Of a DNA stretch of 64,000 nucleotides, positions 26,993 through 28,545 are shown one piece after another. A model generated the notes under the pieces. The model was not told the DNA's origin. It was given only the letters and a program-made list of their open reading frames with translations, and did no database searches. Every line of letters starts with the position of its first letter. Position 1 is the stretch's first letter. Origin of the DNA: Bacteroidetes bacterium GWF2_40_14 (GTDB taxonomy: Bacteria; Bacteroidota; Bacteroidia; Bacteroidales; UBA932); contig MEOK01000017.1 of NCBI GenBank assembly GCA_001769195.1, positions 92,988 to 156,987 on the forward strand. The letters run 5' to 3'. Made by a program: the position numbers and the translations under genes.

Positions 26993-27286
26993 CTATATTT
27001 CCTTTCTTTTCTCTTTGTATTTTACCAGGATATCTTTAAGCACATCTGCACAATCTACTAATGCGTCTTCAAATTTTATTGAATGACGTTCTACTACCAG
27101 GTCATTACCCGGCATGTCTACCCTTATCCTTACATTTTTATTCTCGTGATCGGGTAAAAGGCTTAATACTACTTCTACTCTTTGTATTTCATCATAATAC
27201 CTTGAAAGCTTAGAAAGCTTTTTCTCGATGAAATCTATCAGCTTCTGATCTGCGTTAAACTTGAGTGACTGAATTCTAATGTCCAT
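26993..27286 (-). CDS. hpf: Ribosome hibernation-promoting factor, short form
   Basis: A 97-residue Hpf/RaiA-family protein (IRIQSLKFNADQKLIDFIEKKL at the start, then RYYDEIQRVEVVLSLL). It lacks the C-terminal dimerisation domain of long Hpf, so it resembles RaiA/short HPF, which binds the 30S decoding centre and blocks mRNA and tRNA. Unusually for this genome, the ATG is preceded by AAGGAGG with a 5-base spacer, and that sequence is formed by the last codons and stop of xerC. It is the third gene of rpsU-xerC-hpf. Confidence 0.94.
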   Translation of the reverse strand: MDIRIQSLKFNADQKLIDFIEKKLSKLSRYYDEIQRVEVVLSLLPDHENKNVRIRVDMPGNDLVVERHSIKFEDALVDCADVLKDILVKYKEKRKEI

Positions 27287-27287
27287 T

Positions 27288-28190
27288 TTATCCTCCTTTT
27301 TTTGCTCGTGGATGAGCGGTTAAAAATACTTTTTTGAGTTGCTCGAATGAATTATGAGTATAAACCTGAGTTGCTGCCAATGATGAGTGACCAAGAACCT
27401 CCTTTATGCTGTTAAGATCTGCACCGTTATTCAACAAATGCGTGGCAATGCTATGTCTGAGTACATGTGGAGACCTTTTGCCTGTAAATCCCTCAACCCC
27501 TCTTAGCTCCTTTGTTACTATTTTATTAACAAAAGAGAGATAAAATGGTTGACCTGAATCTGTCAAAAAAAAGTTACTATCGTTGCTTACAGGATATATC
27601 TCCCTGAACTTCTCCAGATAAAGGGCAAGTTCCTCCTGAAGACTCTCCGGAAGAGGTATCTCTCTTTGCTTATCCCCTTTACCAATCACTCTTAATACTG
27701 CTCTTCTGACATCCCAATCCGATATCTTAAGGTTTGCCAGTTCCGCCCTTCTTAGACCTGTACAGTAGAGCGTAGAGATTATTGTACGGTTTCTGAGTGC
27801 ATAAAAATCCTCGGGATCAGAATCTTTTTCAAAATAGTGTTCTACTGCATTCTGAGTGTAGAATTCTGGTAGTTTTTTTGATTGTTTTGGCCTGGGAACT
27901 CTTTTAACAGGATTAGCTTTTATGTATCCCCTTTTTACAAGAAAGTTTGAGTAGCTGCTAAGTGCCGATAGTTTAAGATTCATTGTTCTTGGAGAGAGAC
28001 CGGAGTCAAGACCTGTTGCAACAAATCCTCTGATTGTGTTGGGATGAAGAGCAACATATTCATCTTCGTCCTCTGAAAGTGATGCATACTCGTAAAATTC
28101 GCCGATGTACCCTGTATAGAGCGTCAGTGTTCTTGGAGAATACCTTTTGTGAACCTTCAGATAATCTATAAACTCATCGATCACTCTCAT
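27288..28190 (-). CDS. xerC: Tyrosine recombinase XerC/XerD family
   Basis: A 300-residue recombinase with an N-terminal SAM-like core-binding domain (1-105) and a catalytic domain containing Arg147 (TGLRRAEL), Lys171 (GKGDKQREIPL), His242/Arg245 (PHVLRHSIATH), His268 (LGHSSLAATQ) and Tyr277 (VYTHN). Xer proteins resolve chromosome dimers at dif. Its place between rpsU and hpf matches a conserved Bacteroidales gene order, so it is a housekeeping Xer rather than a mobile-element integrase. No Shine-Dalgarno precedes it. Confidence 0.94.
   Translation of the reverse strand: MRVIDEFIDYLKVHKRYSPRTLTLYTGYIGEFYEYASLSEDEDEYVALHPNTIRGFVATGLDSGLSPRTMNLKLSALSSYSNFLVKRGYIKANPVKRVPRPKQSKKLPEFYTQNAVEHYFEKDSDPEDFYALRNRTIISTLYCTGLRRAELANLKISDWDVRRAVLRVIGKGDKQREIPLPESLQEELALYLEKFREIYPVSNDSNFFLTDSGQPFYLSFVNKIVTKELRGVEGFTGKRSPHVLRHSIATHLLNNGADLNSIKEVLGHSSLAATQVYTHNSFEQLKKVFLTAHPRAKKGG
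27291..27298 (-). promoter_or_regulatory. Strong Shine-Dalgarno for hpf, embedded in xerC 3' end
   Basis: The minus strand reads AAGGAGGA, then TAAA, then the hpf ATG; from the core AGGAGG to the ATG there are 5 bases. The same bases encode the final Gly-Gly of XerC and run into its stop codon. Almost all other genes in the window have no such sequence. Confidence 0.85.
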
Positions 28191-28273
28191 AATTATTCTT
28201 TGGTACTAATTTACAAAAAAAATTGACACCTTATTAAAACAAAGTGCCATTTTCTAAAAATTATTTAAGGTAA

Positions 28274-28465
28274 TTACTCCTCGTTTAAGCGAAGAGCTTG
28301 TACATAAATTGCTTTCTTAATTTCATCGCGTCTTTTAACAGAATTTTTTGTAAAAGTTTTTCTGCTTCTAAGTTCACGAACTATGCCGGTCTTCTCAAAT
28401 TTACGCTTGAATTTCTTCAACGCTCTTTCAATATTTTCACCCTCTTTTATTGGTACTATAATCAT
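28274..28465 (-). CDS. rpsU: 30S ribosomal protein bS21
   Basis: The ATG at 28465 gives 63 residues: MIIVPIKEGENIERALKKFK, then KRKFEKTGIVRELRSRKTF, the standard S21 sequence with a basic C-terminal helix. In Bacteroidia ribosomes bS21 (with bS18 and bS6) covers the anti-Shine-Dalgarno tail of 16S rRNA. The longer frame starting at 28525 would translate through the ribosome-binding site and is rejected. The gene has an exceptionally strong Shine-Dalgarno. It heads rpsU-xerC-hpf and is divergent from hutU. Confidence 0.97.
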   Translation of the reverse strand: MIIVPIKEGENIERALKKFKRKFEKTGIVRELRSRKTFTKNSVKRRDEIKKAIYVQALRLNEE

Positions 28466-28473
28466 ACGGCAAA

Positions 28474-28482
28474 CACCTCCTT
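28474..28482 (-). promoter_or_regulatory. Near-perfect Shine-Dalgarno for rpsU
   Basis: The minus strand reads AAGGAGGTG followed by 8 bases and the rpsU ATG: nine bases complementary to the canonical 16S rRNA tail. This fixes the start codon and fits an autoregulatory site that is read only by ribosomes whose anti-SD is exposed for lack of bS21. Confidence 0.9.
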
Positions 28483-28545
28483 TTTTTAGAACCGTAAAAG
28501 TATGGATAATTTTTATATCAGACAACTTATTAAACTGATTTTTCC

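Follow-up and report, generated by a model that had tools for sequence, protein, structure and literature searches.

The Shine-Dalgarno sequence (SD) ahead of hpf, the gene for the short ribosome hibernation factor, is to judge from its distribution almost certainly kept by selection across Bacteroidales, though these genomes have largely abandoned SDs. The motif GGAGG is found there in 82 of 108 genomes of the order, about three quarters. The intact anti-SD of Bacteroidota is left unused by most mRNAs, and its purpose has so far been explained mainly by rpsU and rpsR. The hpf SD adds a target that does not encode a ribosomal protein, and it suggests that hibernation may be linked directly to what the ribosome is composed of. 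A selected hpf SD that is read by a freed 16S tail is the overall explanation favoured here, with some confidence. In the open literature, as covered by titles and abstract openings, no description of a conserved hpf SD in Bacteroidota was found.

The hpf leader and its conservation

The hpf gene considered here lies in a window of 64,000 nucleotides (the whole stretch of DNA that was analysed) from Bacteroidetes bacterium GWF2_40_14. On the minus strand the gene order is rpsU, xerC, hpf, with rpsU upstream of xerC. Features are listed by position in the window.

26993 to 27286, minus strand: hpf, short ribosome hibernation factor, 97 aa; PF02482 (Ribosomal_S30AE), E 1.2e-16
27288 to 28190, minus strand: xerC, tyrosine recombinase with C-terminus HPRAKKGG*; PF00589 (Phage_integrase), E 1.4e-30, and PF02899
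27292 to 27301, minus strand: hpf Shine-Dalgarno AAAAAGGAGG, in the last codons of xerC; 10-bp pairing to the genus 16S tail GGAACACCUCCUUUUU
28224 to 28249, minus strand: terminator-like hairpin with T8 tail in the gap between rpsU and xerC (weak evidence)
28274 to 28465, minus strand: rpsU (bS21), 63 aa, Tyr54 present; PF01165, E 1.1e-17
28472 to 28485, minus strand: rpsU extended Shine-Dalgarno AAAAAGGAGGTGTT, 6 nt to the ATG; 14-bp pairing with the genus 16S tail

The HPF profile match (Ribosomal_S30AE) scores 61.6 bits against a curated cut-off of 23.7 and is the single match in the genome. On the minus strand the junction reads ...CGAGCAAAAAAAGGAGGATAAAATGGAC, with the AGGAGG core at 27297-27292, the spacer ATAAA at 27291-27287 and the hpf ATG at 27286-27284. 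The final codons of XerC, GGA GGA TAA, occupy 27296-27288, and the last Gly-Gly is encoded by the hpf SD. The letters thus bear out the original prediction of an AAGGAGG 5 nt before the hpf ATG that also codes for the final Gly-Gly of XerC. That prediction had the SD running into the xerC stop as well, which is correct for the Gly-Gly coding and not for the stop itself: the SD core ends 1 nt before it, and the TAA belongs to the spacer. It rightly called this SD the second strong one, the other being the AAAAAGGAGGTGTT of rpsU (28485-28472). A run of seven A lies at 27297-27303 on the minus strand, 5' of GGAGG at the end of xerC, where a 1-base slip would take XerC into the hpf frame. There is no sign that the hpf SD is masked by a stable hairpin (leader fold z 0.44). 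The hairpin between rpsU and xerC is 1 found in 2 kb, compared with a shuffle mean of 1.2, and has a fold z of -1.77; weak as this evidence is, a single rpsU-xerC-hpf transcript should not be assumed.

Conservation was scored as GGAGG at -20 to -4 of hpf. The genus has it in 22/22 readable leaders (23 loci, 21 with a scored junction; one locus, cut at a contig edge, was dropped), and the family in 18/18 loci, which were the best-scoring ones among 126 matched genomes outside the genus. Conservation in close relatives, on which the original prediction had staked itself, was thus found, and the observation is stronger than it had claimed. The order was taken as Bacteroidales; 109 of its genomes gave a match, and 108 were used (the one left out matched only in part), from 103 families, five of them represented twice. 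When these 108 leaders were dinucleotide-shuffled in 200 rounds, GGAGG turned up in 2.75 of them on average and in 9 at most. The motif is missing from 26 of the 108, 20 of which are without AGGAG too, so the hpf SD is dispensable. In other orders it was detected in 20 of 68 sampled genomes, a non-random sample drawn mostly from the best E-values downward among 104 matched genomes. Named loci titled Bacteroidales, Prevotellaceae or (one) Bacteroidetes have it in 15 of 17 cases; eight of these (L004-L011) are contigs of already-counted genus members, some present twice in the tree, and the other nine give 7/9. Both Chitinophaga/Sphingobacteriaceae named loci also carry it, and it was seen in 0/7 named Flavobacteriaceae and 0/3 Saprospiraceae or unplaced Bacteroidia. 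On a tree of 199 XerC+HPF rows the SD state changes 33 times (18 times among the 105 order rows), whereas shuffling the labels gives 60 changes on average (52-69). The smaller number of changes shows that the SD is inherited, with repeated loss or gain.

Neighbouring genes were counted in the 80 long order loci only, with starts set by profile position. There GGAGG precedes hpf in 50/69 and occurs in 0/69 of the hpf mock windows; nine other genes summed to 8/524 (xerC 0/76, tuf 0/60, nusG 6/58, rplJ 2/59, rplK 0/57, secE 0/50, rplL 0/47, and what are presumably rplA, 0/60, and rpoB, 0/57, whose 50-aa pieces are without a Pfam match).

Predicted pairing with the 16S tail in genomes with few SDs

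The 16S gene of this genome ends at model position 902, at a contig end, and the tail used was that of its genus relatives, GGAACACCUCCUUUUU. The genus tail, ...TGGAACACCTCCTTTTT, was seen in 8/11 other genus genomes and in 3/5 further family members tested. In the family the tail ends CCTCCTTTTT (G001, G003, G006, G008, G012, G016, G017, G022, G038, G039, G063), and in ten other order genomes CCTCCTTTCT. A candidate tail, TGGATCACCTCCTTTCT, matches 0/118 order genomes. The tail TGGAACACCTCCTTTCT has an exact match in 10/118, the remainder being either without 16S or different; with N at its doubtful base it was found in 0/25 genus genomes.

Against the genus tail the hpf SD forms 10 bp at -13.6 kcal/mol with a spacing of 5 (ViennaRNA duplexfold). 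The rpsU SD is stronger, with 14 bp at -21.5 kcal/mol by the same program. Across the order, with one order tail applied to every genome, a duplex of -10 kcal/mol or lower is formed by hpf in 71/108 genomes, by the hpf mock window in 1/108 and by rpsU in 19/94, and the median for hpf is -11.9 kcal/mol (duplexfold). Mock windows of some control genes pair as well, for example secE with 7/50 at -10 kcal/mol.

Such pairing is rare in the genome itself. In a sample of 352.8 kb (10.5% of the genome) with 297 ORFs of at least 110 aa, none of the 297 first-ATG starts reaches -13.6 kcal/mol; one does when the best ATG in the first 25 codons is taken, as does one mock window. At -10 kcal/mol or lower there are 7/297 first-ATG starts compared with 12/297 mock windows; judged by energy, SDs show no enrichment. 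In the whole genome AGGAGGN3-10ATG occurs 313 times (reversed control 215) and AAAGGAGGN3-9ATG 43 times (reversed control 17), and by this excess the hpf SD is rare, not unique. A chance origin of the hpf SD is ruled out by the shuffles, the duplex energies and this sample of starts. Another SD-bearing gene, possibly related to stress, is an ORF at C34:28079-28514 (minus strand; in L138) with AATCAGGAGGATTAAATTATG, which from its sequence we take to be Hsp20-like.

The hpf SD probably works by SD-ASD pairing. It could do so as a constitutive element, inherited from an SD-using ancestor and used without regulation by normal ribosomes, which we consider doubtful. These genomes do retain a few SD genes, as such an inheritance would have it (GGAGG lies ahead of the first ATG in 5 of the 297 sampled ORFs, mock 2), and SD genes amount to 2% in Bacteroides fragilis according to PMC10783764. 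However, with fewer SD windows than mock windows at -10 kcal/mol, a general use of SDs that could have been inherited is absent, and Y54 of bS21, the residue in contact with the 16S tail, is conserved: it is kept in this genome, in 18/18 members of the genus, in 93/94 of the order and in 41/45 of the class.

The junction of xerC and hpf

The xerC stop (TAA-A-ATG) begins 4 nt 5' of the hpf ATG, and the two genes overlap in 13 of the 16 junctions scored in the family. This geometry would suit termination-reinitiation, in which ribosomes ending xerC restart on hpf by means of the SD beside the stop. That reading is unlikely for the order, where proximity of stop and start is not conserved: of the 104 junctions scored, 88 have the xerC stop at least 13 nt 5' of the hpf ATG, and distant stops of this kind are accompanied by the SD about as often (68/88) as the closer ones (13/16). 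In the own-genome sample only 1/125 of the tight tandem genes has GGAGG. Coupling of tight genes as a general cause of the hpf SD is thus unsupported by either set of junctions.

Selection on hpf initiation also agrees with the placing of the motif. The distance from GGAGG to the ATG is 4-8 nt in 81/82 order loci, and the base that follows is mostly T (44 of the 82) or A (36), as for an SD. Extension past AAAGGAGGT is rare at hpf, unlike rpsU, with G as the following base in 3/82. These figures make it very improbable that AGGAGG is instead a GGA site to which an RNA-binding repressor or an sRNA attaches. The precedent for such a site comes from E. coli, where CsrA binds GGA motifs of genes related to hibernation, some of the motifs overlapping SDs (PMC10746276). 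The likeness is one of post-transcriptional control at the GGA or SD of hibernation-related genes; the CsrA system relies on a protein repressor, of which hpf bears no sign past the common GGA letters.

The end of XerC differs among these organisms while the SD stays. Of the 104 order rows scored, 69 have an XerC with PRA* or PKA* as its end; of 81 order loci, 68 have the SD 3' of the stop codon of xerC and 13 have it within the gene. In those 13 it is read in three frames, as Gly-Gly in eight, Arg-Arg in two and with Glu in three. Since the same AAGGAGG occurs in three xerC frames or after the xerC stop, nucleotide selection for hpf explains the Gly-Gly, which is best read as a translated SD. 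This supports the proposal in the original prediction that selection for the hpf SD shapes the C-terminus of XerC. The alignment it had suggested, in which the SD is kept while the end of XerC varies, gave that result above the genus level and not within the genus, where 21/21 scored junctions have KKGG or KNGG; a tail so invariant means that the genus alone could not show the two behaving differently. This invariance is also what would be expected if the Gly-Gly tail mattered to XerC and the likeness to an SD were a by-product, an explanation of negligible probability that is rejected above the genus level, as the SD is read in three frames, the same nucleotides are Arg-Arg or Glu codons elsewhere and PRA* or PKA* is the end in most order rows.

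The usual place of the hpf SD is the gap after an xerC ending HPRA* or HPKA*, the family of the window having gained KKGG by read-through. That the xerC stop was lost in this family, so that XerC reads through the SD, is shown by comparison of the sequences; the exact mutation is a matter of inference. For example, the leader of L080 (GCA TAA AAAAGGAGG) and that of the genus (GCA AAA AAA GGA GG) are one T apart, and loss of that T would convert HPRA* to HPRAKKGG. Both genomes seen of a sister genus, g10 (L067, L070), have xerC and hpf joined in a single open frame, 424 and 453 codons long from one stop to the next. The frame reads HPRAKKGGN-M-HPF, and AAAGGAGG and the ATG are retained internally. 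There HPF would be either fused to XerC or the product of internal initiation.

A possible tie to ribosome composition

In Flavobacterium johnsoniae three proteins, bS21, bS18 and bS6, hold the 16S tail, and strong-SD reporters give more output after truncation of bS21, its mutation at Y54 or its depletion (McNutt 2023, PMC9976891). For example, a tuf reporter given AGGAGGU went up more than 2-fold with bS21 deltaC and by 70% with Y54A. Autoregulation of rpsU in that organism resembles the hpf case in that an SD complementary to the tail lies 5' of a gene that serves translation, the tail being sequestered by the three proteins. It differs in that the product concerned is bS21, whereas hpf encodes a hibernation factor. 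The longest unbroken match to the tail at hpf is 6-9 nt in 74/108 order genomes, compared with 9-13 bp reported for rpsU in PMC9976891. In the text of that paper 'hpf', 'raiA' and 'xerC' are absent, and 'hibernation' appears in one reference title only.

Most likely the hpf SD acts by base-pairing to the 3' tail of the 16S rRNA. In Bacteroidia this tail is kept in place by bS21, bS18 and bS6, so pairing should be easier for 30S subunits with a free tail, either immature or stripped of bS21 or bS18, and HPF would be raised as incomplete subunits accumulate. The A-rich hpf leader (A at -3, -12 and -13) would let complete ribosomes translate hpf at a basal level. Given the conservation of Y54 and the F. 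johnsoniae reporters of PMC9976891, an SD of the strength of hpf could respond to tail release. The original prediction that hpf translation is boosted by bS21-poor ribosomes with an exposed anti-SD is plausible on this analogy, and unproven. A tie of hpf to tail release through loss of bS21 or bS18 is proposed only tentatively. It is a still more speculative suggestion that the exposed anti-SD serves as a signal of ribosome integrity in Bacteroidales: 30S subunits without bS21 or bS18 would prefer hpf, so that ribosomes which are incomplete or damaged would call for their own hibernation, and in the genus of the window rpsU (repair) and the neighbouring hpf (shelter) would be driven together. 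The alternatives weighed above are not exclusive of the main explanation. The report of no functional SD interaction in Prevotella bryantii (PMC3155529) counts against that explanation.

The sensor may differ among lineages. All 18 genus loci have an extended rpsU SD (12-14 bp), of the same kind as that of F. johnsoniae rpsU as described in PMC9976891, so rpsU and hpf could answer one signal in this genus. According to that paper, whose whole-genome scan concerned Flavobacteriales, no Bacteroidales fits the rpsU criteria used there, to which the genus of the window is an apparent exception. GGAGG at rpsU was found in 0/94 order genomes and in 0/48 of the long order loci, and the proven bS21 circuit is therefore not generally present where the hpf SD occurs. 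Strong SDs at rpsR (bS18) have been described in Bacteroidales (Jha 2021, as cited in PMC9976891 and PMC8710568). They occur in the same order and are of a similar strength class, -7 to -14 with a mode of -11 kcal/mol by free_scan, compared with the hpf median by duplexfold, the programs being different. The rpsR product is part of the tail pocket; the hpf product is not. With SDs reported at rpsR in Bacteroidales and no GGAGG at rpsU in the order genomes, the order-wide sensor for hpf may be bS18 or incomplete 30S subunits generally, not bS21.

The lineage distribution of the hpf SD is nearly opposite to that of the rpsU SD. All seven named Flavobacteriaceae have GGAGG at rpsU and none at hpf, the reverse of the order. 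On the tree the hpf and rpsU states give nine independent supported pairs, for which a sign test of linkage between the two is not significant. A further motif, GAAAGAG, like an SD minus one G, occurs in 0/108 hpf leaders and in 18/94 order rpsU leaders, where it lies at -14 to -19, as in AGAAAGAGGTATT.
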